From Candidatus Poribacteria bacterium (GTDB taxonomy: Bacteria > Poribacteria > WGA-4E > WGA-3G): DNA of 41,560 nucleotides. The stretch is taken from positions 1-41,560 of the forward strand of contig VXOP01000359.1 of NCBI GenBank assembly GCA_009839975.1, in the 5' to 3' direction. Below the pieces are notes generated by a model that searched no databases, had not been told where the DNA came from, and saw nothing but the letters and a program-made list of their open reading frames with translations. Below are positions 7,613-30,983 of the stretch, piece after piece; positions within the stretch are counted from its first letter, which is position 1; each line of letters starts with the position of its first letter. A program made the translations under genes and the position numbers.

Positions 7613-8371
7613 TTGAGAGAAATGGGTTTAGATGATAATAATTTAGATGATGATGAATTACATCGACGATTCGTGGAAACAGGAGAATGCGAGTATACAC
7701 TAAAACTGCTTATGCAAAGGTATGAAAAGTCGGTACGCGCTTGTGTTTTGAAAATTTTGAATGACCCGCGAGATGCTGATGAAGTCACGAATGAAACTTT
7801 CCGCAAAGCATTTATCAATAAAGGAAAGATCAAGTATCCTGACAAACTCGAAGGGTGGTTACATACAATTGCGAAAAATGCTGCATTTGACTACGTGAGA
7901 GGGAGAAAAGATGAGGATGGAATTGAGATTGTCTCTCTTGATGATAAAGATGGTAAAAATATCGCTGCTGCAACATTGTTTGAAGAACAGCAGGTACAGC
8001 AGACTGAGGCGATGCAATATCAATTGAATGGACTATTGAGACTACTATCCGAAAAGGATCAAGAGATCGTAGATTATATAAGGGATGACTTGAGACCGAA
8101 GCAGATTGCAGAAAAAATTGATTTCACGCCATCTGCGGTTCAGAAAAGAAGGGAACGGTTACTTGAATGGTTACGTCCAGTTGCTGACCAATTAGACGAA
8201 CTACTCGATGACCTTCCACCTCAGGATCAGAAAGTCATGGAACGGCATTTAGATGGTCAACCAATTGAAGAGATTAGCAGAAGTTTAGTTATCACTCCGA
8301 CTGATATTGAGACATGTGTCAAACGTGTGATTAGGGAGTGGAAGAAAACCGTTAGGTCAAATACCACATAA
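7613..8371 (+). CDS. ECF-like RNA polymerase sigma factor with an extra C-terminal sigma4-like helix-turn-helix
   Basis: Sigma factors direct RNA polymerase to promoters. Region 2 spans about 31-97: LLMQRYEKSVRACVLKILND, then ADEVTNETFRKAF and LEGWLHTIAKNAAFDYVRGR. Region 4 spans about 140-187: LSEKDQEIVDYIRDDLRPKQ, then IAEKIDFTPSAVQKRRERL. A second, similar segment follows at about 196-246: LPPQDQKVMERHLDGQPIEE, then ISRSLVITPTDIETCVKRV. At 252 residues it is longer than most ECF factors. The frame opens with TTG at 7613; an ATG at 7622 is the alternative. AGGAGGGGG (7592-7600) fits the TTG better. A 9-codon frame, MLIERNGFR, starts at 7606 and overlaps it. No anti-sigma gene is recognised next to it. 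Confidence 0.82.
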   Translation: MREMGLDDNNLDDDELHRRFVETGECEYTLKLLMQRYEKSVRACVLKILNDPRDADEVTNETFRKAFINKGKIKYPDKLEGWLHTIAKNAAFDYVRGRKDEDGIEIVSLDDKDGKNIAAATLFEEQQVQQTEAMQYQLNGLLRLLSEKDQEIVDYIRDDLRPKQIAEKIDFTPSAVQKRRERLLEWLRPVADQLDELLDDLPPQDQKVMERHLDGQPIEEISRSLVITPTDIETCVKRVIREWKKTVRSNTT

Positions 8372-8382
8372 TAGAGGATACT

Positions 8383-8592
8383 ATGCTTCGCTACATATCA
8401 TGCAAAAAACGGATGTCAATAAACGATGATATTATCCTTCAAAAGGGTATGTCTCAAAAGGCACAGAACAAGGTTCAAAGAGATGTGTCGCGAACAAAGT
8501 CTTTTAATTCTTTGGAAAGTCAGTCTGAATCTGTGGCAGATACGTTGGTTCCCACAGAGGAGACAACACCAACAACCGACACAGCAATATGA
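8383..8592 (+). CDS. Small hypothetical protein downstream of the sigma factor (69 aa)
   Basis: This 69-residue frame begins 11 bases after the sigma factor stop, with GAGG just upstream. It is basic at the start (MLRYISCKKRMS) and rich in Ser, Thr and Glu at the end (VPTEETTPTTDTAI). It has no membrane segment, which argues against a classic membrane anti-sigma factor. The tight spacing suggests co-transcription. I do not recognise it, and it may be an unstructured regulator or a non-functional frame. Confidence 0.35.
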   Translation: MLRYISCKKRMSINDDIILQKGMSQKAQNKVQRDVSRTKSFNSLESQSESVADTLVPTEETTPTTDTAI

Positions 8593-8712: not shown

Positions 8713-9537
8713 ATGCGTTTTAAAAACCTAACGATTACGATAACTTTAGGATGTCTTTCTCTTGTAGCATTGGCTGGTTTGGTAATGCTGCCGATTAGCG
8801 ATGGAATATGTTGGGAGGATAATAACTTTGGTAATTCAAAGTACAAATCTTTAACTAATAGTAAAGAAATTGACGTGACCGGTCGGGGTTGGAATCTGAG
8901 TGCATCCCTGGCCGCAACATCTCACAGGGCTTCCGCTTCAGCCACACCATCTATCACAGGACTAAATGATTTTACAGAAACGCATGCATGGATCGGACAT
9001 GTCAATGCTTACGCACAAGCAAATGCATGTACTGTATTTCGATTGAAATGGTGGTCGAATGTATATTACAAAAAGGTCAATATTGAGGCAAAGTCTTTTG
9101 AATCCTCTGGTGATCTTCGTGCTAAAGTCGTTGTCGGATTGCGGGCATGGGGAGAAGGTGAGGTTAAAATCAAATCCGATCCAGATGTAAAATTCTCGCT
9201 GACTGCACCGCTAGACGAATTTATAGGAATAGGATCTGAAATTAACTTTTCTGGGAATATCTATGTACAACTTGATGATGCAGAGTTTATTTACAATGTT
9301 GACTCTCCAGTGGATATTTCAGAAGTGCAGATTGCTGAGGTGTCAAGTGTTTGGGAGGCATATAAAAGTGCTTCGATTAAATCTTTCTGGTTTGGCACAC
9401 AATCCATAGATAACGGAGAACAAGTGGCGGACGAAAGTGACCGTAGGACTTTTAATGATGCCGATGTATATTATGAACCTGGACCGACTGATTATGGATT
9501 TTCTGAACGTTTATTAGGATGGGTATTAATCAGATAA
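8713..9537 (+). CDS. Secreted hypothetical protein (274 aa)
   Basis: The N terminus is a signal peptide: a basic start (MRFKNL), then a hydrophobic core ending near LVMLPISDG. The mature part is rich in alternating polar and hydrophobic residues (GWNLSASLAATSHRASASAT, AKVVVGLRAWGEGEVKIKSD), which suggests beta structure. Aromatic residues cluster at about 110-120 (RLKWWSNVYYKK). A good Shine-Dalgarno (AAGGAG) precedes the ATG. No family is recognised. It follows the sigma factor unit and precedes the oligosaccharyltransferase run on the same strand, and has its own promoter. An envelope role is inferred only from the export signal. Confidence 0.65.
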   Translation: MRFKNLTITITLGCLSLVALAGLVMLPISDGICWEDNNFGNSKYKSLTNSKEIDVTGRGWNLSASLAATSHRASASATPSITGLNDFTETHAWIGHVNAYAQANACTVFRLKWWSNVYYKKVNIEAKSFESSGDLRAKVVVGLRAWGEGEVKIKSDPDVKFSLTAPLDEFIGIGSEINFSGNIYVQLDDAEFIYNVDSPVDISEVQIAEVSSVWEAYKSASIKSFWFGTQSIDNGEQVADESDRRTFNDADVYYEPGPTDYGFSERLLGWVLIR

Positions 9538-9555
9538 TAAATAATCTTATCATTT

Positions 9556-9602
9556 AGGCATCTGCATCACTATGATATACTCACATAAGGTTGCAGATGC
9601 CT
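9556..9602 (+). promoter_or_regulatory. Inverted repeat enclosing an extended -10 box upstream of the STT3 operon
   Basis: AGGCATCTGCA (9556-9566) and TGCAGATGCCT (9592-9602) are perfect 11-base inverted repeats with a 25-base loop. The loop contains TGATATACT (9573-9581), which fits an extended -10 promoter (TGnTATAAT-like). The first gene of the run starts at 9622 behind AAGGAG. The arrangement could be a repressor-bracketed promoter. It could equally be a terminator-like hairpin for the upstream gene, but no T-run follows. Confidence 0.45.
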
Positions 9603-9621
9603 GTAAATAAGGAGTTTTCTA

Positions 9622-11199
9622 ATGGACCGCAGAAAGGTGTTTATGATTTCATCTATTTTAGTAGTGTTTGGAGTAGTTTCTTTTTTCTTACTCAATGCAC
9701 GCCCTGGTTTAGTGCAACGAGTTCTGCCGTTCACACAAGAAAAAGATACAGCACTCTTAGACCTACACCCTCTTGCATCAGATGCTGCTATTAAAGCAAC
9801 ACACACACAGACCGTAGATACATGGGAAGAATGGATTGAGGCAAGGACAGAAGCATGGTTAGGTGTCCAAGTCTTGCACGGTTTTTTAAAAACAGAAGCA
9901 GAAATTGCAGCTAAACGCGCAAAGATTCGAAAACGTGCAGTAGAGAACGCTGAACGGTTCAAACCCTATTTAGACAAGCCACCAACCGTTGGTGGAAAAC
10001 TACCATATCACCTATTGCCTGGGGTAGAATCACCAATATTCCTTCCTCCCAAAAAGTATGAAGGTCCTCAAACAGTAGAAGGACTTACTGAAGCATTTGA
10101 TGCAAAGTATGTGGAACTATACCCTGATGCAAGTGCTTATGACGAGTATTATCCGCGTTCTGAATGGATACAGATGCTCCTTGATAAGGGAATGCTTTTT
10201 GAAAACCGGGATGATTACAACGTAATGCTCAACATCCGGGGATGGATCATTAATGCCGAATCACGTCCGGACTGGTGGGCTGAAGGAGAAGCAGGTGTCA
10301 CACCATCTGATAATTTTGAGACATATAAAAATGCATATATAGACCGTCAGATGTGGCAACAGGAAGTCTATAAACGCGTTACTACAGAAGATCCAACTGC
10401 AGTTGGCGTTCGCTTTTTTGATGATCGTCCTGATAAGTATTTGATAACGAGACCGGATACACTCTACGTTAATAGAGATGGTGCTGGAACAAGGTACTGG
10501 GGAACTGGTCCTAAGGCAAATCTAAACTTAGAACAGCGGCGTTTACTCGTAGAAGAAGGAATTCATCCTGAAGGACTCAATGTTATCTATGTTGATAATG
10601 ATTATAATATTCTATCTGAAAAACCTCCGCCCTTTGATAGGGAAGCACATATTGATTCTTTTATGACAGAAAAACAACGAGAGGAAGCAGAGAAGGAGTT
10701 AGAAACGTTTGGAAAAATAATTGAGTTGAATGAACAAGATTCTTCATTGATGAACCAAGAGGATGAGCATAACAGAATTGATGAAAATGCTGCCGCTGCC
10801 CGTGAAGCAGCTATGGCTGCCCGTGAAGCAGCGAAAACGGAATACGAAAAGTTTGAGAACCGTATGCGGCAACTTGAAGAGTTATCAACAATGTCGGATG
10901 CTGAGATTGAGAAAAAACTTGAACGTCAGTTCCGTAAACAGTTCCTACCAGAGCTTCCGGTAGAGCAGTTAGAACAGATTACACCACAACGTCTTGAACG
11001 TGCATTAGGCACTCTATTTCAATACGGTTATGAAGATGGTATGCGTAGGATACGGGAGGATAACGCGACACTTGCGGATCTGTTAGAGCGACACTTTGGC
11101 AAACGTACTCAATCGCCTGCTTCGGTCCCAAAGAATCCGCCAAGACCCGTGCCACCGAAACCAGTAGAAACAACGGATACATCCCCCGATACGGAATAA
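9622..11199 (+). CDS. Bitopic membrane protein with C-terminal coiled coil (525 aa), first gene of the STT3 run
   Basis: One N-terminal membrane segment is seen at about 8-26 (MISSILVVFGVVSFFLLNA), and the rest is predicted to face the periplasm. Residues about 175-207 carry a YP-x8-L-x2-G-x2-F-x4-DY-x3-L pattern (YYPRSEWIQMLLDKGMLF, then DDYNVMLNIRGWI). The next gene carries the same pattern. Residues about 350-440 are Glu/Ala/Arg-rich with EEAEKELETFG and AAAAREAAMAAREAAKTEYE, typical of a long coiled coil. The end is proline-rich (KNPPRPVPPKPVE). It has no known catalytic motif. It starts behind AAGGAG and ends with TAAATG shared with the next gene, so translation is probably coupled. A scaffold or partner role for the glycosyltransferase is inferred. 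Confidence 0.65.
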   Translation: MDRRKVFMISSILVVFGVVSFFLLNARPGLVQRVLPFTQEKDTALLDLHPLASDAAIKATHTQTVDTWEEWIEARTEAWLGVQVLHGFLKTEAEIAAKRAKIRKRAVENAERFKPYLDKPPTVGGKLPYHLLPGVESPIFLPPKKYEGPQTVEGLTEAFDAKYVELYPDASAYDEYYPRSEWIQMLLDKGMLFENRDDYNVMLNIRGWIINAESRPDWWAEGEAGVTPSDNFETYKNAYIDRQMWQQEVYKRVTTEDPTAVGVRFFDDRPDKYLITRPDTLYVNRDGAGTRYWGTGPKANLNLEQRRLLVEEGIHPEGLNVIYVDNDYNILSEKPPPFDREAHIDSFMTEKQREEAEKELETFGKIIELNEQDSSLMNQEDEHNRIDENAAAAREAAMAAREAAKTEYEKFENRMRQLEELSTMSDAEIEKKLERQFRKQFLPELPVEQLEQITPQRLERALGTLFQYGYEDGMRRIREDNATLADLLERHFGKRTQSPASVPKNPPRPVPPKPVETTDTSPDTE

Positions 11200-11778
11200 A
11201 TGAAAACGTATAGGTATCTGATTATCCTCGTGACCTTCGTTGTTGCTGCCGTGTGTTTCTATCTTTACACCATGCCGTTCTATCAATCTGCACAGAAATC
11301 CGAAGATGCCCGATGGATAACAGAGTGGGATCAACTTGACATCACCACGGTTAGAAGAGACTATCAACCTTACACGGTTGCGGAAATGAATGAATTGTGG
11401 CAAACCCAGTTGTTTGAGAAATATGGGTATTCTGAAGAATTCGTGGGTATGATGCAAAAAATTGACAACGTTTATCCGCAGGATACCTACCTTTCCAAAA
11501 TGCTTGAACTTGGAAGACCGTTCATAGACTTCTCGGACTATGAAACTGCGCTTATAGAGCAACGTCGTTGGTTATATTCAAAGCGATTGTATTGGGATAT
11601 CATGAATACAGAACAGAGGTGTGATTACCTCTTGAATCATGGTTTAGCATGCAACGCTACGTGGGAGGTGTTGGAGGACTCAATTCTAAAGAACGATGTT
11701 GTCAACAGCCTCAATTTTTGGTATTCAAAAGAGATTGATCCGGACCTGAAAGGGTACAGTCAGCAGACTGAAGAATAA
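11200..11778 (+). CDS. Bitopic membrane protein (192 aa), paralogous motif with the upstream gene
   Basis: The protein has an N-terminal membrane segment (about 6-25, YLIILVTFVVAAVCFYLYTM) and a periplasmic part of about 165 residues. Residues about 91-119 read VYPQDTYLSKMLELGRPF then SDYETALIEQRRW. Without gaps this matches the pattern in the preceding protein: YP, L, G, F, DY, L, then R and W. The two probably share a domain. The start abuts the previous stop and its own stop abuts the STT3 start (both TAAATG), so the three genes are almost certainly co-translated. No family is recognised. A structural or regulatory subunit of the oligosaccharyltransferase is a guess from position. Confidence 0.65.
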   Translation: MKTYRYLIILVTFVVAAVCFYLYTMPFYQSAQKSEDARWITEWDQLDITTVRRDYQPYTVAEMNELWQTQLFEKYGYSEEFVGMMQKIDNVYPQDTYLSKMLELGRPFIDFSDYETALIEQRRWLYSKRLYWDIMNTEQRCDYLLNHGLACNATWEVLEDSILKNDVVNSLNFWYSKEIDPDLKGYSQQTEE

Positions 11779-14244
11779 ATGAAATCTTACAAAATCGTAA
11801 AACACGTTGGTGCGGCTGTACTCCTTATATCCCTTTTATTTGTAGGTAGCAAGATCCGTCTACAAGGTATTGCCAATATTCCGACAGATCACTTTGCGTC
11901 TAATGATGCGTTCCTATACTATTCGCAAGCGAAAACGATTGTCGCCGATGGTACTTTACCCGAAGTAGATGATCGGAGATGGGGGCCGACAGGTAGGGAT
12001 TTGAGTAGCACATTCAACGGTTATTCTTACGTAATCGCTTACGCCTATAAGTTTATCAAATTCTTCCTGCCGGGTGTTACACTCTATCAGGTGCTCCTCA
12101 TTGCCCCGACTGTCTGCTTTCTCATCGGCGTAGCGGTGTTATGTACTTTCCTTTATGTCCGTTTTGGGGTTTCTGTCGCAGCAATCGTCGGTATCCTGCT
12201 GATTATCATGCCCGGTGGCATTGATCGCAGCACTGCTGGGTTCAGTGATAGAGATGCGTGGTGCTGGATGCTCGCTACCCTTGCAGTCACAGTATATCTG
12301 TGGAAAGAGAACATAACACGCGCGACCCCACGTTATATCTGTGCGGGACTCTCCGGTGTCTGCGTTTTTGTTGGTGGGTTGAGTTGGGAAGGATTTGGCG
12401 GTTTCGTCCTCATCATTGTCGTCGTAGAACTCTGGCGTTTTCTCACAACAGATACTGAAGAAAACTTGTCAGAATATCTCTTGTGGGTGTTGATGTTCGT
12501 TCCAACGCTTTACCTACTTTCCCCCGTATATCGTAGTGGCAGCAGTTGGACAACACACGTCACTGCTTTTCTGCTGTTGCCTTCACTCGTTATACTTGCT
12601 ATACGAACGTTACGCTATTTTCTCACGCACAAACAGCATGCCGTTTTAAAGGTTATCACCGAGCAGGTTTCAGCGCGTGCTATCTCGCTTGTTTGTTGTG
12701 CGATCTGCATCCTCATAGGCATCGCTTACATTGCATTTCAACGCGATACTTTTGCACACAGTATCTTGCCTCTCAGTGCAGCAGAGATCATGGAAATGGT
12801 GGGTGAACTCCAATCCCCACATGACATTTTCTGGTACGGACGATATGGACACGTTCTGCTTATCGCAAGTCTATGCCTGAGCATAGGCTGCATTAGAATC
12901 TGGGGAAAGAAGGCAATCCCCCTTGCAGCACTGCTCGCTTTTTTCACCACCGCTACATTTCTCAGACAGTATTTATATCATGTCCTATCCCCTGTTATCT
13001 GTGAATACCTGTTCTATGGTGCAGTTGCCTTCACACCTATCGCTGCACTCGGTATTGCTGTACTTCGAACGGAAGACGTTACGCATGAACTGACTTACGT
13101 AGCTTTCGCGTTCTGGTTAATACTCTGGGTGGGACTTGCCCGCGATGCACTACGCTACGATTTCTTTATCGGTGTGCCACTCTCAGTTTTTGCAGCACTC
13201 GGCATACAACACTTCACACTTCTCATGACAAAATATATTCACCAGAGAACACCTAAAAGAGTGTTTGAGAGAATACACACGTTGACAAAACCCGCTATCA
13301 CAATTGCAGCCATTGCACTTATGCTTTTTTTCGAATTGCCAGGGAACAATATGCCTGCCCTGGCACAGAGAGGGTACCAGGCACGGATCTCTCCTGAAGC
13401 TGTTTTTCCCGGTAAAAACACACCCATCGCAAATGCTTGCCACTGGATACAAGAACACTTGTCTGAAGACAATGTCATCGCAGCACCTTGGAGTTTCGGA
13501 CACATGCTCAACGTACTCGGTAGTGTGAAAACAATCATTGACCCAGACCATTTCATCTTACACCGAATACAACTCTATGAAAAGCACGTTTCTAACGCAA
13601 CAACCGAACGCGAAGCATTAGAGTTTCTAAAAACACACAATGTGACACACCTTCTACTGACAGAAGAAGATGTCTTATACACAGCAGCAAAAGACAGACA
13701 CGATGCTGAAAAACACAGCGCGGCACCCAATATGATGCCGCTTATCCCACACACGCAGATAGGGACTCCACACTACCGCATGAGACCCGCATACAAGAAC
13801 AGTGCTATCAACTTTGTGGAGATAGACTTTCATCACACGCCAGCAGACGCGACAGCACACCTCAAAAACGGTAAAACAGTAAAACTTGGATATGTTATCG
13901 CAGATGGCACTCCTCAGACTTCACACGCGGAACAGGATCATGAACACAACACTACACAAAAGAACGGACAGGAAACTACGGAAAAAAACGGCGGAATACT
14001 ACACTTCTTTGATCAAGAAACACATCAAGAAGCCATACATTACCTCTCACCGCAACGTTGGAACAGACTTGCTATCAAATTATTCTTCCGATATCAACAC
14101 AGCGATGCGTTTAGACAGGTATATCCACAGAAACAGACAGCAGATGCTAAATTTAAAATCTGGGAGATACATTATCCACCTGATATAAAAGAAAATACGA
14201 AATACCTGCAAAAGTCTCCACAGAACAAAGATCAACAGAAATGA
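11779..14244 (+). CDS. STT3-like oligosaccharyltransferase (GT-C fold), divergent
   Basis: This is an 821-residue protein with about 11-13 membrane segments in residues 10-520 and a soluble C-terminal part, the layout of STT3/AglB/PglB. These enzymes transfer a lipid-linked glycan to asparagine on exported proteins. The first acidic motif is ASNDAFLYYSQAKTI (D43). The second is STAGFSDRDAW (D157, D159), with the usual AG-x-D-x-D spacing. A SAAEIMEM segment (333-340) sits where the TIXE/SVSE loop is expected. R459 lies in DALRYDFF. The WWDYG region is recognisable (NVIAAPWSFGHMLNVLGSVK, 565-584), but the motif reads PWSFG. A Thr/His/Glu-rich linker lies at about 690-730. It is coupled to the gene before (TAAATG) and the gene after (ATGA). 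It could act on a non-protein acceptor. Confidence 0.78.
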   Translation: MKSYKIVKHVGAAVLLISLLFVGSKIRLQGIANIPTDHFASNDAFLYYSQAKTIVADGTLPEVDDRRWGPTGRDLSSTFNGYSYVIAYAYKFIKFFLPGVTLYQVLLIAPTVCFLIGVAVLCTFLYVRFGVSVAAIVGILLIIMPGGIDRSTAGFSDRDAWCWMLATLAVTVYLWKENITRATPRYICAGLSGVCVFVGGLSWEGFGGFVLIIVVVELWRFLTTDTEENLSEYLLWVLMFVPTLYLLSPVYRSGSSWTTHVTAFLLLPSLVILAIRTLRYFLTHKQHAVLKVITEQVSARAISLVCCAICILIGIAYIAFQRDTFAHSILPLSAAEIMEMVGELQSPHDIFWYGRYGHVLLIASLCLSIGCIRIWGKKAIPLAALLAFFTTATFLRQYLYHVLSPVICEYLFYGAVAFTPIAALGIAVLRTEDVTHELTYVAFAFWLILWVGLARDALRYDFFIGVPLSVFAALGIQHFTLLMTKYIHQRTPKRVFERIHTLTKPAITIAAIALMLFFELPGNNMPALAQRGYQARISPEAVFPGKNTPIANACHWIQEHLSEDNVIAAPWSFGHMLNVLGSVKTIIDPDHFILHRIQLYEKHVSNATTEREALEFLKTHNVTHLLLTEEDVLYTAAKDRHDAEKHSAAPNMMPLIPHTQIGTPHYRMRPAYKNSAINFVEIDFHHTPADATAHLKNGKTVKLGYVIADGTPQTSHAEQDHEHNTTQKNGQETTEKNGGILHFFDQETHQEAIHYLSPQRWNRLAIKLFFRYQHSDAFRQVYPQKQTADAKFKIWEIHYPPDIKENTKYLQKSPQNKDQQK

Positions 14245-14738
14245 TGCGGGTATTCAAACGTTGCTGTCTCATTGCAGTTTTCCTCATCAGTGTACTTGCA
14301 ATCACCAACGTTATACGACAACGGATTGTGATACAAACCCCAGAAAAAATATACATCACACCCAAAATAGAGTCGAAAGAATATGCGAAAAAAAACACAA
14401 AACTCTATCAACACCTAATGCCGGAACCGATTGACCATCAGGAAGTATTCTATAACACTATCATTGAGAATAACATCTTTGCACCCCTCGGATATAAACC
14501 CTCAGTAAGAGCACCCAGTTATAGACTCATCGCGACACAGATACCCTACGGCAGAGAAATTGAAGCGACCGCTATATTACAAGAGACCACAGGACAGAAA
14601 AGGGTACATATCGCTACCATCGGCACAAAAATTGATGGGGAGACAATTATCATGGATATACAAGAAAAACAGGTTATACTCAAAAAAGGAAAACGTCGGA
14701 TTTCGCTGAGGATGAACACAAGCATTTTTTTAAAGTAG
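14241..14738 (+). CDS. Bitopic GspC/PilP-like protein (165 aa)
   Basis: It starts in a 4-base ATGA overlap with the STT3 stop. A membrane segment (about 7-25, CCLIAVFLISVLAITNV) is followed by a linker and then a small beta domain at about 72-160. That domain reads ENNIFAPLGYKP, then YRLIATQIPY, EIEATAIL, IGTKIDGETIIMDIQEKQVI, and ends KKGKRRISLRM. The sequence of an F-G-like start, a self-contained hydrophobic strand, a GD-like turn and a closing V-x-L strand resembles the homology region of GspC and PilP. Those are periplasmic connectors of type II secretion and type IV pili. No other secretion genes are nearby, so it may instead link the glycosyltransferase to envelope partners. The assignment is by pattern only. 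Confidence 0.5.
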   Translation: MMRVFKRCCLIAVFLISVLAITNVIRQRIVIQTPEKIYITPKIESKEYAKKNTKLYQHLMPEPIDHQEVFYNTIIENNIFAPLGYKPSVRAPSYRLIATQIPYGREIEATAILQETTGQKRVHIATIGTKIDGETIIMDIQEKQVILKKGKRRISLRMNTSIFLK

Positions 14739-14748
14739 CAACAACACC

Positions 14749-15366
14749 ATGACAGCAAACATCATTACACTTGCCCGATTATTTCTCACATTTCTCATCA
14801 TCACTTTGTTCGGTAAAAACATCTTCATAGATACAGCGGCAATTGTTACCATTGCTCTAATCTTCATATTAGATGCTGTAGATGGTTATGTGGCTCGGAG
14901 GACGCATACCACATCATTATTCGGTGCAGTGTTCGATATTGCAGCGGATAGGATCATTGAAAATGTGTTTTGGATATACTTTGCAGTCAACGATATTATC
15001 CACTTTTGGATGCCTATCGCCGTGCTCACACGCGGGTTCACCACGGACGCAATACGTAGTTTCGCAATCAGCAATGACAACGCTCCTTTTGAAATGATGA
15101 CAAGAAGGTGGACACGGGCATTAACAAGTTCTCGCATCTCACGTTTCATATCTGGTGCTTCAAAAATGTGTGCTTTCTGTGCGATGGCAGTCCTACGCAT
15201 GCTACAGAGTTATGAACTCTTCCCACAACACTTAGAAACAATTCAGACAGGAACACATATCCTGGCAACAACGGCTGTCGTTATTTGCCTCCTTCGCGGC
15301 GTGCCGGTGCTGATGGATGGTATAACACACATCCAGCCTACACTAAAACACCACATATCTTCTTGA
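14749..15366 (+). CDS. CDP-alcohol phosphatidyltransferase family membrane protein
   Basis: This 205-residue membrane protein carries the full family signature DG-x2-AR-x8-G-x3-D-x3-D, seen as DGYVARR followed by GAVFDIAADR (residues about 44-67). These enzymes join a CDP-linked diacylglycerol or alcohol to a second alcohol using Mg2+. Typical products are phosphatidylglycerol-phosphate, phosphatidylinositol-phosphate or cardiolipin. The short length and position near the N terminus resemble PgsA. Several membrane segments follow. It begins 10 bases after the GspC-like gene and closes the run. The pairing with an oligosaccharyltransferase could mean a dedicated lipid for the glycan carrier or acceptor. 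The substrate is not deducible. Confidence 0.82.
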   Translation: MTANIITLARLFLTFLIITLFGKNIFIDTAAIVTIALIFILDAVDGYVARRTHTTSLFGAVFDIAADRIIENVFWIYFAVNDIIHFWMPIAVLTRGFTTDAIRSFAISNDNAPFEMMTRRWTRALTSSRISRFISGASKMCAFCAMAVLRMLQSYELFPQHLETIQTGTHILATTAVVICLLRGVPVLMDGITHIQPTLKHHISS

Positions 15367-18513: not shown

Positions 18514-18906
18514 ATGGCTAAATTAAAGCAACTATATCCTATTCTGATCTGTTTGTTGATGACAGGATGCGCAGCACTTTTTTCTGAGCAAGAGTATGTA
18601 TTAGTTGATCAGAAAGTATCTCAACAACCTGTTTTTTCAGGAGTAGTTTATTCTATACCAGAGCAGGTTAATGTTCGCAAAATTGTGCTACTCGGTAGAG
18701 GAAAGGTACAGAATTTCGATGTATATGTCCGTGATGAAAAAAATAATTGGAAATTCACAAAAGAGGTGCAAAGGGCAATAGAGTTTCCATTTGAGATCTT
18801 TGTCGTTGCGAATACGGATGCTATTAAAATCGCACACCGTTCTGTTACCGGTAAAGGACGTATTGAAACAATTCAACTCTACACGATTGCAGAAAAAGAG
18901 AAGTAA
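18514..18906 (+). CDS. Small lipoprotein (130 aa)
   Basis: A lipoprotein signal peptide is clear: MAKLKQLYPILICLLMTGC, with the lipobox LMTGC placing the modified cysteine at residue 19. The mature part is about 110 residues with alternating strands (VRKIVLLGRGKVQNFDVYVR), which suggests a small beta domain. No family is recognised. GGAG stands nine bases before the ATG. It is the first gene behind a sigma-54 promoter, and the first propeller protein starts 10 bases after its stop, so they are co-transcribed. It may anchor or assist the propeller protein at the envelope. Confidence 0.75.
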   Translation: MAKLKQLYPILICLLMTGCAALFSEQEYVLVDQKVSQQPVFSGVVYSIPEQVNVRKIVLLGRGKVQNFDVYVRDEKNNWKFTKEVQRAIEFPFEIFVVANTDAIKIAHRSVTGKGRIETIQLYTIAEKEK

Positions 18907-18916
18907 GGGAAATGCC

Positions 18917-21250
18917 ATGAATACATGTGCTTTCTGTGTCAGACAAGGTCTGTTGTTTCTTATTGTTTTCATCAGCATTGTAGGGGGACAGTATACTGCA
19001 TTAGCAGTTGAACCTATAGCCACGATTGGACAACCGCAACCTGAAAGGCACGTTTTTCTTTCCAACGATAGGTATTTGCGAGTTGTTCGAACACACATTC
19101 AGATCGTTGACTCCAATTCAGGTGTTGTGGTAGCTGAATTTGCTGATCTAACACAGGACAAATTGTTAGGGATTAGTCCGACTGGCGCACACGTGGCAAT
19201 TCTACACGCTACTGGTGTTGAAGATAAAAGGATGATAAACATTTGGGATGTTAATACACAAAACCTGATTTCTGAGTGGGAAATTGGATCCGGATCACCA
19301 TATATCGCTGCGTTTAGTCCTGTGGACCCGATCTTAGTTATCTCCATTGATAATCAAAAACATCTGTGGAACTGGAAGACAGGTGAATTTCTTGGAACAA
19401 TGATGGGAGAACGAAGAAAATCAGAATTTTGTTCCTACACAGAAAATGGCAGAATTTGCGGCGGCGAATATGAAAATGAAATGGTTTTTACACCTGATGG
19501 CACGTATTTTATGAACGGTTCAAGACGCCCAGATATAGAGGTGTGGAACATTGAAACACAAAAACTGGAAGGACATTTTGAAGGTCATGAAGGAAATTGG
19601 GTTGAAGGGTTGGCGATGAGCCCAGATGGAAAAAGACTCGCATCCTTTGAAGTATCAAATTTAATTTATGTGTGGGATATAGAAACACGACAATTGTTAT
19701 GGAAGATGGTAAATGGAATAGGAAGAGTTACCGATTTAACTTTCAGTCCGGACAGTCAACATCTGTATGTTTCATCAAGAAACGGTAGGTTACGTAAAGT
19801 CGGCAGTAACCCTTATGAAGGGTGGGATGATACAGTTCGCGTCTGGGATGTCAGAACAGGAGAACATATTGATACGTTCAGCACAGAATTTCGTGATATA
19901 GAAGCAATCACACTGTCACCGGATGGGAAAACAATGCTCTTGAATTATCACGATGCAGAGGTAATGTGGGATATTCAAAAGAAGCGAAAGCAAAATGTAT
20001 GGGCGGATTTTATCAAACCCGGAGGGTATCAGGCTGTTGTCGTAAGTCCTGACGGCAAAACTGTAGTTTCTGTATCCGCGCACTGTTTTAAGACTTGGGA
20101 TGTTGCTTCACAACAAATGGGAGTAATAGTTTCCGCAGATGGTCATAGATACCGGAGTGTTGGATTCGCTACTGATAGCAAAACACTTGTTGTTGGCAGA
20201 AATTCTGACCCTTTTCTTGAATTCAGAGACATTCACACGGGAAAACTTGATATGCTTTATCCACATTCGCTTTGGTATGTTGAGAGCATTACCTTCGGCA
20301 CCACTGGAAAATGGTTTGCAGTGTCAGATTCTGGACGTGAACTTGCTATCTTAGACACAAAAAACACGGAAAACCCCCAACCGCTTCATTCACACGTTGA
20401 TCTTGGAGCAGAGCCACGTTTCTATAAATTTGGCTTCAGTGAAAATGACAAATATTTCGCTGCTTATGCCTACACAAGTAACAATGATGACTATAAACGT
20501 TGGATACTACTCTGGGAACGCGAAGGGACAACGTTTGCTTTTAAATACGCATGGGAGGCGTCAGGATTTTACTATCCACCGGAATTTACAACCCAATCAG
20601 ATGGTTCAACACTGTTGGCAGCGGCTGCAGGAGATCTAAAGATTTGGAAACTATCACCATCGCAACCACAGCTCTTATCAACATTGAAAGGATATGGAGA
20701 TTCACCAGTCCTATTCACCGCAGACAATAAATATCTCTTTACTGCCAATGATGAAGCCACTCAACTATGGGATTGGAGGATGGAGACACCGATTGAACAT
20801 TCAACTATTCCAGACTATTTTGCCATTAGTCAAGATGGTGCTGCGCTCCTTGCTTATTCTGATAGTGGGGAAATTCAGGTCTGGAACGGGAAGACGTTAC
20901 TACCTAAACTACCAGTTGAACCCCACGGCAAGAAAATTGCCACACTCGGAGAAGTAAAGCGAAACCAACTCCTACAGAACTTTCCAAACCCATTTAACCC
21001 TGAGACTTGGATACCATTCCAACTTACCGATCGGCGTAATGTTTCAATTCATATCTATACGCCGACAGGCAATTTAGTCCGAACTTTGTCATTAGGCGTG
21101 ATGTCTGCGGGGAATTATACCTCTCAAAGCAAAGCAATCCATTGGGATGGACGCAATAAACATGGAGAATTTGTCAGTAGCGGTATCTATCTGTATACAA
21201 TCAATGCTGGCGAGTTCTCTGCTACACGCAAGATGCTAATACAAAAATAA
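18917..21250 (+). CDS. Secreted beta-propeller (WD40-like) protein 1 with C-terminal FlgD-type module
   Basis: The start is set at the ATG 18917 because a signal peptide follows directly (CVRQGLLFLIVFISIVGGQY). The frame is open upstream to 18791, but those residues overlap the lipoprotein gene and lack export features. The mature protein (777 residues with signal) is made of WD40-like blades ending in phrases such as IEVWNIETQ, VYVWDIETRQL, DDTVRVWDVRTG and IKTWDVAS, with SPDGK before them. The last 93 residues (685-777) are a FlgD-Ig/sorting-like module: LLQNFPNPFNPETWIPFQL, then IYTPTGNLVRTLSLG, SSGIYLYTINAG and FSATRKMLIQK. It lies in tandem with two paralogues. A surface binding or scaffold role is likely. 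Confidence 0.85.
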   Translation: MNTCAFCVRQGLLFLIVFISIVGGQYTALAVEPIATIGQPQPERHVFLSNDRYLRVVRTHIQIVDSNSGVVVAEFADLTQDKLLGISPTGAHVAILHATGVEDKRMINIWDVNTQNLISEWEIGSGSPYIAAFSPVDPILVISIDNQKHLWNWKTGEFLGTMMGERRKSEFCSYTENGRICGGEYENEMVFTPDGTYFMNGSRRPDIEVWNIETQKLEGHFEGHEGNWVEGLAMSPDGKRLASFEVSNLIYVWDIETRQLLWKMVNGIGRVTDLTFSPDSQHLYVSSRNGRLRKVGSNPYEGWDDTVRVWDVRTGEHIDTFSTEFRDIEAITLSPDGKTMLLNYHDAEVMWDIQKKRKQNVWADFIKPGGYQAVVVSPDGKTVVSVSAHCFKTWDVASQQMGVIVSADGHRYRSVGFATDSKTLVVGRNSDPFLEFRDIHTGKLDMLYPHSLWYVESITFGTTGKWFAVSDSGRELAILDTKNTENPQPLHSHVDLGAEPRFYKFGFSENDKYFAAYAYTSNNDDYKRWILLWEREGTTFAFKYAWEASGFYYPPEFTTQSDGSTLLAAAAGDLKIWKLSPSQPQLLSTLKGYGDSPVLFTADNKYLFTANDEATQLWDWRMETPIEHSTIPDYFAISQDGAALLAYSDSGEIQVWNGKTLLPKLPVEPHGKKIATLGEVKRNQLLQNFPNPFNPETWIPFQLTDRRNVSIHIYTPTGNLVRTLSLGVMSAGNYTSQSKAIHWDGRNKHGEFVSSGIYLYTINAGEFSATRKMLIQK
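20969..21247 (+). other. C-terminal FNPETWIPFQL module of propeller protein 1
   Basis: This 93-codon segment recurs at 23417-23695 and 25834-26112. It is far more alike between the three paralogues than the propellers are. Positions 21194-21235 and 23642-23683 are identical over 42 bases, with two differences in the third copy. Related modules at the C termini of exported proteins act as sorting signals in type IX secretion, or fold like FlgD Ig domains. Confidence 0.7.
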
Positions 21251-21392
21251 CCCTGTCTCAGCATTCTCGGTTGGTGCAGCAAATGCACCTGAACGTGCAG
21301 TCGCAAGAACTGCTTGCCCGTCTTTGTGCAGGTTATCCCGGTATGATGCCTTTCAGTTGTTGAATTTCAGTCCGTCTTAACGCCAATCGGCT

Positions 21393-21409
21393 TGGCACGA
21401 ATTTTGCTT
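21393..21409 (+). promoter_or_regulatory. Sigma-54 (-24/-12) promoter upstream of propeller gene 2
   Basis: TGGCAC-GAATT-TTGCTT is an exact sigma-54 core, 34 bases before the ATG at 21443. It means the reading frame that opens at 21393 is promoter rather than coding sequence. The gap 21251-21392 upstream also has a small hairpin, GGTGCA-GCAAA-TGCACC (21273-21289). Confidence 0.8.
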
Positions 21410-21442
21410 TCTATTTTATATGAAATCGCTTGGAGTTTTTTT

Positions 21443-23698
21443 ATGAAGAAATTTGCATCTGTCTTTAATTGGTTTCAAGTTTATGTTGTTTTGATAGGTA
21501 TTGTCTGTGTGCCTGGCATTGCTTTGGCACTTGAACCTATTGCCACCATCGGACAACCGCTTCCAATACAGCACAGTTTTCTGGACAATAATACGATTTT
21601 GCGCGTTGTCCCAACCCATATTCAGGTTGTTGATGCCAATACTGGTGATGTTATGGATGAATTCGGTAATTTGGCATACTGTAGCGATGTTGTGTTTAGT
21701 CCGAATGCCCCATATTTAGCAATTCAATCTTCCAACCGACCAAATTTTGTAGAAATTTGGGATGTCAACACTCGTGAAAAAATATCCGAGTGGGAGATTG
21801 ATGACGAATTTCATATCGCAGCATTTAGTCCGACGCAACCACTCCTTGCTATCTTAATAGACAGAAGGATACATTTATGGAATTGGCAGACTGGACAACA
21901 TATTGACACAACTATAGTTAATCTATACGGTAATGCGTTTGCGTTTGCGCCAGATGGGAAACATCTCGTCGTCGCTTCAAAAGAACCATATATAGAGGTG
22001 TGGAATGTGGAGACAGGCGAACGAGTTGAACATTTTAGAGGACATACAAGCATTTGGTTACGTGGTACGGTTATCAGTCCAGATGGAAATCATATAGCAA
22101 TGTATAATTCAAGAGAGACAGACATTTATGTATGGAATATTGAAACACAAGCACTAATATGGAATACTAAAAGTGGCACTGGAGCGATTAAAGACCTAAC
22201 ATTCAGTCCGGACAGTCAAAGTTTGTATGTTGCTACAAGAACACAAAGATTGAGTAGGTCTGGTCCTAATCCTTGGGAAGGTTGGGACGATAAAGTACGT
22301 GTTTGGGATGTTAAATCAGGACAACAAATTGACGCGTTTAGCACAAAGTTTCATGATTTAAATGGGATAGCATTATCGCCAGATGGTAAAACTGTGTTAA
22401 TGGAATATCCTAATGTTGTGGTGTTATGGGATATAGAGGAGAAGAAACCTATACAGATATGGGAAGATTTTGTCGGTGAATCGTATCCCAGTTCAGTTGA
22501 GCTAAGTCCAGATGGCAAAACTGTCGCAGCAATATCAAGGCAGTTTATAAAAACCTGGGATGTTGCTTCAGAGCAGATGCAGTTAAGTATTTCTGCCGAT
22601 GGATATAGGTTTGAAGATATGGCTATATCTCCAGACAGTAAAAGACTCGCTGTTATCAAGGACCCGTGGGTTGAAATGCGCGACATTCAAACTGGAAAAG
22701 TTGAAACGCAAATTTATCCGCATACCGTTATGTCCATGGAGGATATAACCTTTAGTTCCACTGGAAGATGGCTTACAGTATCTGGCTGGGAAGATCTCGT
22801 TATTTTTGACTTGAACAACCTTGAGAATCCACAGATACTACCCCCTGACGTTGTGCCGGGTTTAAAACCGTATTATGATGAATTAACTTTCAGTGAAAAC
22901 GACGAATTTCTTGCTGCTTCGGTCTGGTCAAATAGCACTCATGACCGTAGTTATTGGATCTATTTGTGGAAACGCGAAGGTGAAACCTTCGTTTTCCAAT
23001 ACGCATGGGAGACGATAGAATTAGATTATCCGCTTGCTTTTCACACCAATGCTAAAGGTTCAATAGTTATAGCAGCTCCCGATTGGAAAGAAATCCAAAT
23101 TTGGGAACTCTTGCCAGAGAAACGTCAAATGTTAACAACCTTAGTAAACAAAGGAGGACCAGTGCGATTTAGTCAAGATGGACGTTACCTCTACTCTCCT
23201 GCCCAGATTTGGGACTGGCAGACAAGTAGACCTATCAAAAATACATCTTACCCAAGATTTGATGACATCAATCAGGATGGCTCTGTTATATTGTCATATA
23301 CAATGTCGGGACAATACCAAGTTTATGATGTAAAACACACACTATCTCTGCTACCTTATGCTGTAGAACCGGAAGACAAGAAGATCGTTATACTCGGGGA
23401 AATAAAGCGGAACCAGCTTCTACAAAACTTTCCAAATCCATTCAACCCCGAAACCTGGATTCCGTTTCAGCTTGCGGACAAGAGCAATGTTACGATTCAG
23501 ATCTATACACCGACTGGCGATTTAGTCAGAACCTTGTCATTAGGTGTGATGGCTGCGGGGAATTATTCATCACAAGCCAAAGCGATCCATTGGGATGGAC
23601 GCAACAATCGGGGTGAACCTGTCAGTAGTGGAATCTATCTCTATACAATCAATGCTGGCGAGTTCTCTGCTACACGCAAGATGTTAATTCGTAAATAG
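21443..23698 (+). CDS. Secreted beta-propeller (WD40-like) protein 2 with C-terminal FlgD-type module
   Basis: The start is placed at ATG 21443. GGAG stands seven bases upstream, and a signal peptide follows (MKKFASVFNWFQVYVVLIG, ending PGIALA). Translation from the upstream in-frame codon would run through the sigma-54 promoter. The 751-residue protein begins its mature part with LEPIATIGQPLPIQHSFLD, very close to paralogue 1. Blades end in VEIWDVNTRE, IEVWNVETGE, DKVRVWDVKSG and IKTWDVASEQ. The C-terminal module starts LLQNFPNPFNPETWIPFQL and ends FSATRKMLIRK. It shares the transcript with paralogue 3, 83 bases downstream. Its ligand is unknown. Confidence 0.85.
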   Translation: MKKFASVFNWFQVYVVLIGIVCVPGIALALEPIATIGQPLPIQHSFLDNNTILRVVPTHIQVVDANTGDVMDEFGNLAYCSDVVFSPNAPYLAIQSSNRPNFVEIWDVNTREKISEWEIDDEFHIAAFSPTQPLLAILIDRRIHLWNWQTGQHIDTTIVNLYGNAFAFAPDGKHLVVASKEPYIEVWNVETGERVEHFRGHTSIWLRGTVISPDGNHIAMYNSRETDIYVWNIETQALIWNTKSGTGAIKDLTFSPDSQSLYVATRTQRLSRSGPNPWEGWDDKVRVWDVKSGQQIDAFSTKFHDLNGIALSPDGKTVLMEYPNVVVLWDIEEKKPIQIWEDFVGESYPSSVELSPDGKTVAAISRQFIKTWDVASEQMQLSISADGYRFEDMAISPDSKRLAVIKDPWVEMRDIQTGKVETQIYPHTVMSMEDITFSSTGRWLTVSGWEDLVIFDLNNLENPQILPPDVVPGLKPYYDELTFSENDEFLAASVWSNSTHDRSYWIYLWKREGETFVFQYAWETIELDYPLAFHTNAKGSIVIAAPDWKEIQIWELLPEKRQMLTTLVNKGGPVRFSQDGRYLYSPAQIWDWQTSRPIKNTSYPRFDDINQDGSVILSYTMSGQYQVYDVKHTLSLLPYAVEPEDKKIVILGEIKRNQLLQNFPNPFNPETWIPFQLADKSNVTIQIYTPTGDLVRTLSLGVMAAGNYSSQAKAIHWDGRNNRGEPVSSGIYLYTINAGEFSATRKMLIRK

Positions 23699-23781
23699 AC
23701 CATATTGCTCAATATAAAGACCTTTGTCAGAACTACAAATTCACATACGATGTGGAATATTAATAATCTGGAGTTTCTGCT

Positions 23782-26115
23782 ATGAAAACACTTACCTTCC
23801 GTATTAAAGAATGCTTGCAAATCTATATCACACTTTTTGGCATTGTTTGCTTACCACAGGTAGCAGTAGCGATTGAACGTATTGCTACGATCGGACATCA
23901 GCGACCGATACAGCATGCTTTCTTGGACAGTAATACGTTTTTTCGCGTTGTCCCAAACCACATCCAAGTTGTTGATGCCAATACTGGTGATGTTAAAGAT
24001 GGATTTGGAAATCTAAGTGAGGATAGCGACGTTGTGTTTAGTCAAAACGCCACACATCTCGCCATTCTGAACTATTCCAATAAAACAAAGAAGACTGACG
24101 TAGAAATTTGGAACACTATTACGCAAGAGAAGATATCTGATTGGGAAACAGAAGCGGATATTGATGCGAACACGGTATTTAGTCCTATTACACCGATATT
24201 GATCAGTTATGACAACAAAGAGATATATTTGTGGAACTGGGAAACAGGTGTGTCACTTGGAAAGATGGTCGGGGCGCGACGACCATTGGAATATTGTTAT
24301 GTAAGCGAAAATCATAGGTCTTGTAGCAGGTCAACTCATAGTAAATCAGTGTTTACAGCGGATGGAAAGTTTCTTATCGTAGCATCACAGCGACCAGATA
24401 TTGAAGTGTGGAATGTGGAAACACGCGAATTGGTTGGACACTTTGAAGGACACACAGGGGACTGGGTTGAGGGGGTGGCGATCAGTCCTGATGGAACACG
24501 ACTCGCGTCCTTTGAGATATCAGATGATGTTTATGTATGGGATATAGAGACACGAGAACTGCTATGGAAGGAGAAAAGTGCCATAAGGAAAATCTTAAAT
24601 GTGACATTTAGTCCAGACAGTCAACGACTGTATGTTGCTTCAGAAACTTATGGTTTAGGTAGATCCGGCGGAACGGCTTGGGAAGGTTGGGATGATAAGG
24701 TTCGCGTGTGGGATGTTCAAACAAGACAACAGTTACAAACGGTAGAAACTGAGTTTCGTAGTTTAGAAGAGATCGCCTTATCACCTGATGGTAAAACGCT
24801 TCTCATGCACTTTCTGGATGGTGTAGTCTTGTGGAATATTGAAGAGAATCGACAAAAAAATGTGTGGACTGATTTTGTTGGTGGTTGGTACAGTAATAGT
24901 ACAATGTTGAGTCCTGATGGGAAAACTGTTGTCTCTGGTTCTGATCATTTTATTAAGATATGGGACGTTGATTCACAGCAGTTGCGACAACTCATTTCCG
25001 CAGAAGATTATATGTTTGGGGGTTTGGCATTCTTACCCGACAGTCAAACATTTGCTGTTAGTAAGAGCCCCTGGGTTGAACTACGCAATATTAAGACAGG
25101 GGAAGTAGAGACTCGTTTTTCGCAATACGTTCCAGGCCTTGAAGGATTCAATTGCAGTCCTTCTGGAAGATGGATTGGCATAGCGAATTATAGAGGAGAA
25201 GTTGTGATTTATGATAGAGAAAATCCTGAGAATAGGCAGGAAGTTCATAAAAGACCTGAAAATGAATCTCCTTATATAGATTTTATTGGATTCAGTGATA
25301 ATGCCGAATATTTTATAGCCACTGGATATAAGCGACACGGACAAGACTCTACACCTTTGATAAAGGTATGGAAACGCGTAGGTAATAGATTCATATATCA
25401 ATACACAGAGACAGGTAAAGCGTTCTGGGGAAATCCTGCATTCACGACGACAGCAGACGGTTCAACAGTATTCGCAGCAGAAGGGAATGAAATAGAAGTC
25501 TGGAAAATTTTGCCAAGAAAGCTTGAACTCTTAACAACGTTGGATGGAGAGGGACCACTGCAATTTAGTCCAGATAGTCGTTATCTTTTTGCCAATGCGG
25601 AAGAACACTTTGAAATATGGGACTGGATGGCAAGCAGACGTATCAAACACTCAACCTCTATTTCTCGGTATGTATCTCTCAGTCAGGATGGTTCTATGCT
25701 GATGTCGCGCGATTATAGCAATACAGATCAATACATGATTTGGGATACAACAGGTTCAATATCTCATTTACCTTACGTTGTTGAACCGAAAGACAGAAAG
25801 ATTGTTACACTCGGAGAAATAAAGCGGAACCGTCTTCTACAAAACTTCCCAAACCCATTCAACCCCGAAACCTGGATCCCGTTTCAGCTCGCGGACAATA
25901 GCAATGTTACGATTCAAATCTATACACCGACAGGCAATTTAGTCAGAACCTTGTCATTAGGAGTGATGCCTGCGGGGACTTATACCTCTCAAAGCAAGGC
26001 AATCCATTGGGACGGACGCAACAATCGGGGTGAACCTGTCAGTAGTGGAATCTATCTCTATACAATCAATGCTGGCGAGTTCTCCGCTACACGCAAAATG
26101 CTCATCATGAAATGA
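23782..26115 (+). CDS. Secreted beta-propeller (WD40-like) protein 3 with C-terminal FlgD-type module
   Basis: This third tandem paralogue has 777 residues and GGAG upstream of the ATG. The signal peptide (CLQIYITLFGIVCLPQVAVA) precedes IERIATIGHQRPIQHAFLD. The blades follow the same order as in paralogues 1 and 2, for example IEVWNVETREL, VYVWDIETREL, DKVRVWDVQTR and IKIWDVDSQQ. As in paralogue 1, an insertion with cysteines follows the third blade (CYVSENHRSCSR here; CSYTENGRICGG there), and paralogue 2 lacks it. The pair may form a disulphide. The C terminus is the shared FNPETWIPFQL module. No own sigma-54 site is seen, so it likely depends on the promoter of paralogue 2. Confidence 0.85.
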   Translation: MKTLTFRIKECLQIYITLFGIVCLPQVAVAIERIATIGHQRPIQHAFLDSNTFFRVVPNHIQVVDANTGDVKDGFGNLSEDSDVVFSQNATHLAILNYSNKTKKTDVEIWNTITQEKISDWETEADIDANTVFSPITPILISYDNKEIYLWNWETGVSLGKMVGARRPLEYCYVSENHRSCSRSTHSKSVFTADGKFLIVASQRPDIEVWNVETRELVGHFEGHTGDWVEGVAISPDGTRLASFEISDDVYVWDIETRELLWKEKSAIRKILNVTFSPDSQRLYVASETYGLGRSGGTAWEGWDDKVRVWDVQTRQQLQTVETEFRSLEEIALSPDGKTLLMHFLDGVVLWNIEENRQKNVWTDFVGGWYSNSTMLSPDGKTVVSGSDHFIKIWDVDSQQLRQLISAEDYMFGGLAFLPDSQTFAVSKSPWVELRNIKTGEVETRFSQYVPGLEGFNCSPSGRWIGIANYRGEVVIYDRENPENRQEVHKRPENESPYIDFIGFSDNAEYFIATGYKRHGQDSTPLIKVWKRVGNRFIYQYTETGKAFWGNPAFTTTADGSTVFAAEGNEIEVWKILPRKLELLTTLDGEGPLQFSPDSRYLFANAEEHFEIWDWMASRRIKHSTSISRYVSLSQDGSMLMSRDYSNTDQYMIWDTTGSISHLPYVVEPKDRKIVTLGEIKRNRLLQNFPNPFNPETWIPFQLADNSNVTIQIYTPTGNLVRTLSLGVMPAGTYTSQSKAIHWDGRNNRGEPVSSGIYLYTINAGEFSATRKMLIMK

Positions 26116-29807: not shown

Positions 29808-30857
29808 TTAAAAAAATGGCACGCCTTGTGCTTCAACAAAGACAGAATATAGGGACTGACTCGCAGTCATAAAGAGTCTATTCCTTTTAACGCCACCAAA
29901 ACAGATATTGGAACAGATCTCTGGTAGATGAATCTTGCCGATAAGTTTTCCATCGGGTGCGAAGATATGCACACCATCGTAACCTTCACCGACCCAGCCT
30001 GCACCTGCCCACACATTTCCATCAGTATCGCACCGGAGTCCATCAGCGTTGCCGGGTGCTGTCTCATAAAATACCTCTTTTTTACCTAACCGTTCACCGT
30101 CTATCACATCAAACACCATAATGTTTTTTGGCGAACCGGTATCAGCTACGTAGAGTTTATCGTATTTGGGAGAAAAGCATAACCCGTTCGGTTTTTCAAG
30201 CACATTCGTCATAACAGTTGCTTTACCTGTCTCCGGATTGAGTCTATATACATTTGTTGGCAATTCAAATTCGGCTTTATGTCCTTCATAGTTGAACATA
30301 ATCCCGTATCCTGGATCGGTAAACCAGATATGTCCATCGGGATGCACGACGACATCGTTGGGTGCGTTGAAACGTTTGCCTTCAAAATTGTCAATCAGGA
30401 CAGTAATCGTTCCATCATATTCGGTTCGTGTGACGCGTCGCGTACCGTGTTCACAACTGATAAGTCGACCTTGTCTGTCTCGGGTGTGTCCATTCGTATA
30501 GTTAGACGGTTTCCGATAGACACTCACTTTTCCGGTGGCTTCTTGCCATTTCAGTATACGGTTATTCGGAATATCACTCCACAGGAGATAGCCGCCATCA
30601 CCGAACCAGACGGGTCCCTCGGACCAACGTGCACCTGTCCATAACCTTTCCACGACAGCGTTCCCTATCTTGTATTTGGCAAAACGGTCATCAATAACTT
30701 CAATTGCAGGATCAGGATAACGTTTAATAATTTTACCATCAGGAAATGTGTCTGTCCAACCCGTCAATGTTCCGACTGTTCCTAACAGTGGCAAGGCTGC
30801 ACCAACGCTCAGGTTACGTAAAAAAGTTCGACGTGACAAATGTTTATGGGTATTCAT
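29808..30857 (-). CDS. SMP-30/gluconolactonase-like protein with Tat signal
   Basis: This 349-residue protein is a six-bladed propeller of the SMP-30/gluconolactonase/LRE family, exported by Tat (SRRTFLRNLSVGAALPLLG). Family phrases are WSEGPVWFGDGGYLLWSDIP, NGHTRDRQGRLISCEHGTRR, FNAPNDVVVHPDGHIWFTDP, KPNGLCFSPKYDKLYVADTG and NADGLRCDTDGNVWAGAG. The metal ligands of the family (Glu in the first phrase, Asn in NAPND, Asp in NADGLRCD) are all present. These enzymes hydrolyse sugar lactones with a divalent metal. The ATG at 30857 is preferred because GGAG lies six bases before it; the upstream GTG at 30884 has no such site. It is next to DUF1552 and may belong to the same periplasmic sugar-use system. 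Confidence 0.87.
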   Translation of the reverse strand: MNTHKHLSRRTFLRNLSVGAALPLLGTVGTLTGWTDTFPDGKIIKRYPDPAIEVIDDRFAKYKIGNAVVERLWTGARWSEGPVWFGDGGYLLWSDIPNNRILKWQEATGKVSVYRKPSNYTNGHTRDRQGRLISCEHGTRRVTRTEYDGTITVLIDNFEGKRFNAPNDVVVHPDGHIWFTDPGYGIMFNYEGHKAEFELPTNVYRLNPETGKATVMTNVLEKPNGLCFSPKYDKLYVADTGSPKNIMVFDVIDGERLGKKEVFYETAPGNADGLRCDTDGNVWAGAGWVGEGYDGVHIFAPDGKLIGKIHLPEICSNICFGGVKRNRLFMTASQSLYSVFVEAQGVPFF

Positions 30858-30983
30858 AGCTGTCTCCGATTTTTTTGCGTTCACTATACTATACCTTCGG
30901 TCTTATTGTCAAGGGTTTTATATATATTCATGTTACCACATGATTTATGGTGGATTATGGAATTATTTATACACTATCAATAA

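Follow-up and report, generated by a model that had tools for sequence, protein, structure and literature searches.

A 41,560-nucleotide stretch of DNA from a Candidatus Poribacteria bacterium (contig VXOP01000359.1, assembly GCA_009839975.1; the whole stretch is referred to here as the window) contains an operon built around a transferase with the STT3 fold of oligosaccharyltransferases (OSTs). Adjoining it are genes for a secreted protein (the candidate cargo), two bitopic membrane proteins (A and B), a protein resembling GspC of the type II secretion system (T2SS) and a CDP-alcohol phosphatidyltransferase. Relative to the closest related locus, the mature cargo and most of A have been replaced as one unit, and the rest of the run is unchanged. 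The locus can tentatively be interpreted, with slightly more doubt than confidence, as a dedicated cassette for the modification and export of cargo, combining an STT3-type transferase, a replaceable cargo, a cognate adaptor (A) and a GspC-HR protein linking them to the T2SS. Known folds account for both the enzyme and the HR protein; it is their combination which appears new, and no system with this set of genes has, to our knowledge, been described. Poribacteria are uncultured symbionts of marine sponges; none of the papers searched mentions them together with STT3 or oligosaccharyltransferase.

The replaced block extends from 8800 to 10790 and covers the mature cargo and the first ~390 residues of A. 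The cargo gene (8713..9537, + strand) encodes 274 residues, of which approximately the first 30 form a conserved signal peptide; the mature part is hypervariable. A (9622..11199, + strand; 525 residues) has an N-terminal transmembrane (TM) segment, is variable to about residue 390 and has a conserved C-terminus. The nearest relative is locus L039 of genome G006, which has the same genes in the same order. In a sliding window, the DNA of the two loci is 83-97% identical from 7,500 to ~8,700, about 45% identical from ~8,800 to 10,790, and 85-97% identical from 10,800 to ~15,300. The encoded proteins follow the same pattern: the sigma factor at the start of the operon is 82% identical, the cargo signal peptide 73%, the mature cargo 25%, A(1-390) 30% and A(391-525) 86%. 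Identity of the remaining four proteins is 84-95% (individually B ~84-85%, STT3 90-91%, the GspC-like protein 94% and the CDP-alcohol enzyme ~95-96%). Over seven loci of the family, the cargo signal peptide is 60-90% identical and residues 31-274 only 14-60%. The block found in the window is nearest to that of a third locus, L040 (60% and 69%), and the remaining L040 genes are 41-73% identical. An assembly chimera is unlikely, since L040 sits in a third, independent metagenome-assembled genome (MAG).

Divergence of the mature cargo is correlated with divergence of A(1-390) over the seven loci (r=0.87, Mantel p=0.005), also without L040 (r=0.70, p=0.03). Cargo and STT3 divergence are not correlated at the same seven loci (r=0.07). 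The covariation suggests that A binds its cargo. In three other families of cargo and adaptor genes, cargo-adaptor covariation is 0.98, 0.85 and 0.91. Replaced blocks of this kind are also seen between other loci. L112 and L114 share 96% of STT3 DNA, yet the adaptors part after ~90 residues, and outside the last ~80 residues the identity between the two cargos is 14-42%. Block replacement is frequent and not universal: some pairs, L101/L105 among them, are alike over their whole length and have no replaced block.

The transferase gene (11779..14244, + strand) encodes 821 residues. Its product was called STT3-like in the initial annotation, and AlphaFold2, Foldseek and family profiles agree in placing it within that fold. 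The AlphaFold2 model has a pLDDT of 83 and a pTM of 0.85, and its first 22 Foldseek matches in the PDB are OST STT3, AglB, PglB or the related DPY19. Taken alone, the sequence matches only TIGR04154 (archaeo_STT3; E=1e-11, far below the cut-off of the model) and has no STT3 match in Pfam. PF02516 (STT3) matches 17 of 48 family members, in which no other Pfam family was found; a family profile matches solved yeast and mammalian STT3 chains (~1e-6) with the WWDYG region aligned. A search of viral structures with the STT3 model gave no confident match. The protein resembles the STT3, AglB and PglB OSTs (PF02516; nearest NCBIfam model TIGR04154) in fold, in its 13-TM-type layout and C-terminal periplasmic domain, and in both DXD motifs and the Glu of external loop 5. 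D43, the first external-loop Asp (DXD-1; 11905..11907), the second DXD, D157-R158-D159 (12247..12255), and E343, the Glu of the TIXE-type motif in external loop 5 (12805..12807), all encoded on the + strand, are invariant in 48/48 copies. Unlike these OSTs, the window family is multicopy, has replaceable neighbours and a Poribacteria-specific C-terminal tail, and is degenerate at WWDYG in every copy.

The roles of the STT3 motifs have been described, including that of WWDYG as the Ser/Thr pocket which reads Asn-X-Ser/Thr (PMC8342417). The family alignment places its equivalent in the window at 13486..13500 (+ strand), where it reads PWSFG. Over the 48 copies, the first Trp is always lost and the Asp is lost in 42; the second Trp is kept in 45 and the Gly in all. 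Several class-level Poribacteria STT3 copies retain WWDYG and others are partly degenerate. In an unrooted tree, the copies of the window's STT3 family group in a single clade with full support, and WWDYG is absent from all of them. In cargo-like proteins, adaptors and HR proteins, the numbers of Asn-X-Ser/Thr, Asn-X-Cys and extended bacterial sequons are close to those expected. Asn-linked glycosylation, which the initial annotation had in mind, is therefore not supported, given the degenerate pocket motif and secreted candidates which are not enriched in Asn-X-Ser/Thr. Judged by its residues, the active site is of the OST type, yet it lacks a defining feature of sequon reading.

The fourth gene of the stacked run (14241..14738, + strand) encodes a 165-residue bitopic protein. 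Its proposed likeness to GspC and PilP holds, initially through a weak sequence match to GspC_delta (1e-4) and then through structure. The model consists of a TM helix and a six-stranded domain, and the best structural matches are PilP, LspC and GspC-HR (probability 0.93-1.00, with E-values of only 0.03-0.25); when the PDB was searched by sequence with the HR family, there was no match. The protein stops directly after the HR domain and has no PDZ or coiled-coil region. It is like GspC of type II secretion and PilP of type IV pili in its inner-membrane helix and HR/PilP-like domain; unlike them, these HR genes are not part of the T2SS operon and occur many times over, next to genes for cargo and adaptor. 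GspC-HR binds the N0 domain of the secretin (PMC3169554). A T2SS-like gene set is present in the window's genome. In neither of two complete genomes, G010 and G024, does an HR gene adjoin the gspK-pilM-pilN/O-secretin operons. HR genes are found in 60/60 genomes examined; one copy, often near a glgC-like gene, is also present in genomes without STT3. Genomes with more STT3 matches tend to have more HR copies (Spearman 0.70 over 36 genomes of the family). One T2SS operon of G010 (5298342-5301984, L234) contains two adjacent secretin genes of ~1000 codons each.

Five genes, all on the + strand, were initially described as stacked, and their two TAAATG junctions, 4-base ATGA overlap and 10-base gap are confirmed. 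They encode A, B (11200..11778; 192 residues, distantly similar to part of A), the transferase, the GspC-like protein and the CDP-alcohol phosphatidyltransferase (14749..15366; 205 residues). The five-gene unit is real and was incomplete: the secreted hypervariable protein and an ECF-like sigma factor (7613..8371, + strand; 252 residues, PF04542/PF08281, TIGR02937) lie upstream, so that the operon starts at ~7613. The presence of these two genes in the operon changes the earlier reading of the locus. Chance stacking of five open reading frames (ORFs) is ruled out because the run is conserved in L039; conservation of gene order, the check proposed for the unit, holds there, and around other STT3 genes the gene set is not fixed. 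Homologous sigma genes (cluster 1) are found upstream of STT3 at other loci. Promoter and terminator scans gave results no better than shuffles. Immediately 3' of the sigma gene, a 69-residue ORF (8383-8592) resembles the middle of a 135-residue TM protein in L041 (MLRYI...NDDVILQ) and is possibly a truncated anti-sigma-like gene.

The last gene of the run was correctly identified as a CDP-alcohol phosphatidyltransferase: it matches PF01066 (7.5e-16), and its catalytic motif, D-x2-D-G-x2-A-R-x8-G-x3-D-x3-D, is complete (DAVDGYVARRTHTTSLFGAVFDIAAD). Between the window and L041 this enzyme is 87% identical and STT3 only 65%, a comparison which suggests that the 3' end of the operon may be exchanged separately. 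A motif common to both bitopic proteins had also been proposed. The direct match between A and B is weak (87 aligned columns), and the relationship stands through a third protein, a 449-residue ORF adjoining another STT3 copy, which matches both A and B (3e-20 and 5e-8). Elsewhere in the genome, A has a match on contig C117, a short contig ending within the A-like ORF; the other matches, on C261 and C208, showed no cargo cassette on reading.

The window belongs to a 4.78-Mb draft genome with five STT3 genes. Relatives have from 0 to 24 STT3 matches per genome, a count in which split genes are counted more than once, and several copies have internal stops; gene calls in relatives are mechanical ORF calls, and copy numbers from draft MAGs are approximate. 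The family is present in 59/85 genomes in a scan of the phylum and, by our count, in 50/59 genomes of the window's own family. All 79 related loci from named genomes, among the matches listed, are from Candidatus Poribacteria MAGs. The neighbourhoods compared comprise 80 further loci (two of which overlap), with their genes clustered. Within five genes of 88 STT3 genes there are 28 GspC-like genes, 19 for AglJ-like GT2 enzymes, 16 for methyltransferases and 15 for CDP-alcohol enzymes, and these four kinds of gene recur downstream of STT3. Upstream are genes for ECF-like sigma factors, for small secreted proteins and for bitopic proteins of which a long part is extracytoplasmic, and different cargo and adaptor genes adjoin different STT3 copies. 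Several of the secreted families near STT3 are rich in Cys and Gly. The small proteins of cluster c21 (L064, L069, L070, L076, L077, L080, L099, L106) are conserved at the N-terminus and variable in the middle; at the C-terminus they have a conserved Cys/Ser/Gly motif, SGSCDSGSC in form, at which modification or sorting might take place.

The glycan donor was initially described as unknown. This is partly answered by genes elsewhere in the genome: an AglJ-like polyprenyl-phosphate hexosyltransferase is encoded directly downstream of two other STT3 copies, and there are two initiating transferases of the PglC/WbaP type. The GT2 enzyme is nearest to AglJ of archaeal N-glycosylation (6e-45) and to archaeal dolichyl-phosphate hexosyltransferases (4e-31), below the family cut-offs in both cases; such a gene is absent from the window's own operon.

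The chemistry and secretion route that we infer for the cassette would be as follows. The sigma factor would drive the operon, and the cargo would cross the inner membrane via Sec. The variable part of A would bind its own cargo, and the conserved C-terminus would dock on B and STT3. The transferase would then move a polyprenyl-linked sugar or glycan onto the cargo, with the adaptor and not Asn-X-Ser/Thr determining the site, and the GspC-HR protein would hand the product to the type II secretion machinery and secretin of the genome. The result would be a repertoire of variable proteins which are modified and either displayed at the surface or secreted. An adaptor of this kind accounts jointly for the loss of sequon reading, for the front of A changing with the cargo and for the constant rear of A. 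A broader proposal, held with distinctly more doubt, is that these loci form an undescribed class of systems for variable proteins, in which sequon-free STT3s, co-exchanged cargo-specific adaptors and private GspC-HR connectors to one type II machine provide a symbiont with interchangeable modified proteins. If acceptor reading proved to be adaptor-directed and sequon-free, this would be a new kind of system. Two questions would become testable: whether a partner protein, rather than a sequon, can give an OST its acceptor specificity, and how a sponge symbiont diversifies what its host is shown. Such loci could also be a source of OSTs with new acceptor rules.

Several observations weigh against the cassette interpretation. 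The covariation of cargo and adaptor spans few loci, and the pair formed by the window and L040 contributes much of it. In the three other families, STT3 also correlates with the cargo (0.60-0.90), so that they support co-inheritance more than independent exchange. There is no gene for donor assembly within the window, and the interpretation gives the CDP-alcohol enzyme no role. GspC-like genes are near only about one-third of STT3 genes. Secreted, bitopic and HR genes are also grouped with no STT3 seen nearby (L240, L241, L251, L252 and, in the window's own genome, contigs C282, C309 and C62); the groups on C282 and C62 are cut by contig ends, and an STT3 may lie beyond the cut. L240 and L241 (contig C2 of G035) contain repeated groups of a c13 bitopic protein, a small secreted protein and GspC-HR. 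Since either kind of gene also occurs without the other nearby, the link between STT3 and type II secretion is not obligatory, and the HR proteins seem to belong to a more general export module, one form of which is the STT3 cassette.

These same groups favour an improbable alternative in which two independent modules lie side by side, the cargo, adaptor and GspC-HR genes serving secretion and STT3 acting on something else. The mixed 3' genes, and copy numbers which range from none to 24 STT3 matches among close relatives, also fit it. Such independence is difficult to reconcile with A, B, STT3 and HR genes joined by 0- to 4-base overlaps, with an A whose C-terminus is conserved beside STT3, and with an HR copy number which tracks STT3 matches. 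The enzyme might otherwise be a conventional N-oligosaccharyltransferase modifying many envelope proteins at Asn-X-Ser/Thr, for which the adjoining secreted protein would be one substrate at best. The OSTs of bacteria are known mainly as general enzymes which read a short sequon, and the full STT3 fold, intact metal site and TIXE-type motif, together with the initiating transferases and AglJ-like enzymes of the genome, are what such an enzyme would have. It is nevertheless an unlikely explanation: none of the 48 copies has an intact WWDYG, the co-encoded proteins are not enriched in sequons, and one general enzyme would suffice where many paralogues per genome have different secreted neighbours.

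Polymorphic toxin-immunity loci share a conserved leader, an exchangeable hypervariable body and a partner gene which diverges and is replaced with it. By this analogy the cargo would be an antagonistic effector, A the cognate immunity protein, anchored in the membrane, and the effector would be modified and exported by STT3 and the HR protein. The many loci per genome, some of them decayed, and the small Cys-rich secreted proteins at other loci agree with this explanation, which is also judged unlikely. Neither the window cargo nor any cargo representative tested showed a toxin domain; A, unlike a free-standing immunity protein, keeps a conserved part tied to the transferase operon; and orphan immunity genes in arrays were not encountered, although no systematic search for them was made. 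Quite improbable is a role in anchoring, in which the STT3-fold enzyme would act with the CDP-alcohol phosphotransferase to add a glycolipid or phospho-alcohol lipid to the cargo, by analogy with glycosylphosphatidylinositol anchors and archaeosortases. The CDP-alcohol gene is directly downstream with its motif intact, members of cluster c6 are weakly similar to lipid synthases of archaeal sorting systems, and the nearest STT3 model is an archaeosortase-associated one. But the CDP-alcohol gene, present in 15 neighbourhoods, is absent from most, and the matches to archaeal models are far below cut-offs. Archaeosortase and exosortase systems likewise pair a membrane enzyme with dedicated exported proteins; unlike them, the cassette has no sortase gene, although exosortases were not sought genome-wide.

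Other genes were noted around the STT3 loci and in the rest of the window. Directly upstream of the STT3 copy in L056, an ORF (10757-13048) encodes a C39-peptidase-like domain fused to DUF1573; an ORF resembling this fusion lies 3' of the GspC-HR gene in L225 (1957-3387, contig C62 of the window's own genome). WD40 genes are common near the STT3 loci of relatives. They were considered as adaptors and dropped, because c15 secreted proteins do not covary with their WD40 neighbours. The window itself contains three consecutive genes for large WD40-type beta-propeller proteins (18791-26115), two of which have FlgD-Ig-like C-termini. Further downstream are two planctomycete-type genes, one SMP-30/gluconolactonase-like (29808-30884) and the other for a DUF1592/1588/1585/1587 cytochrome-associated protein (32827-35250).

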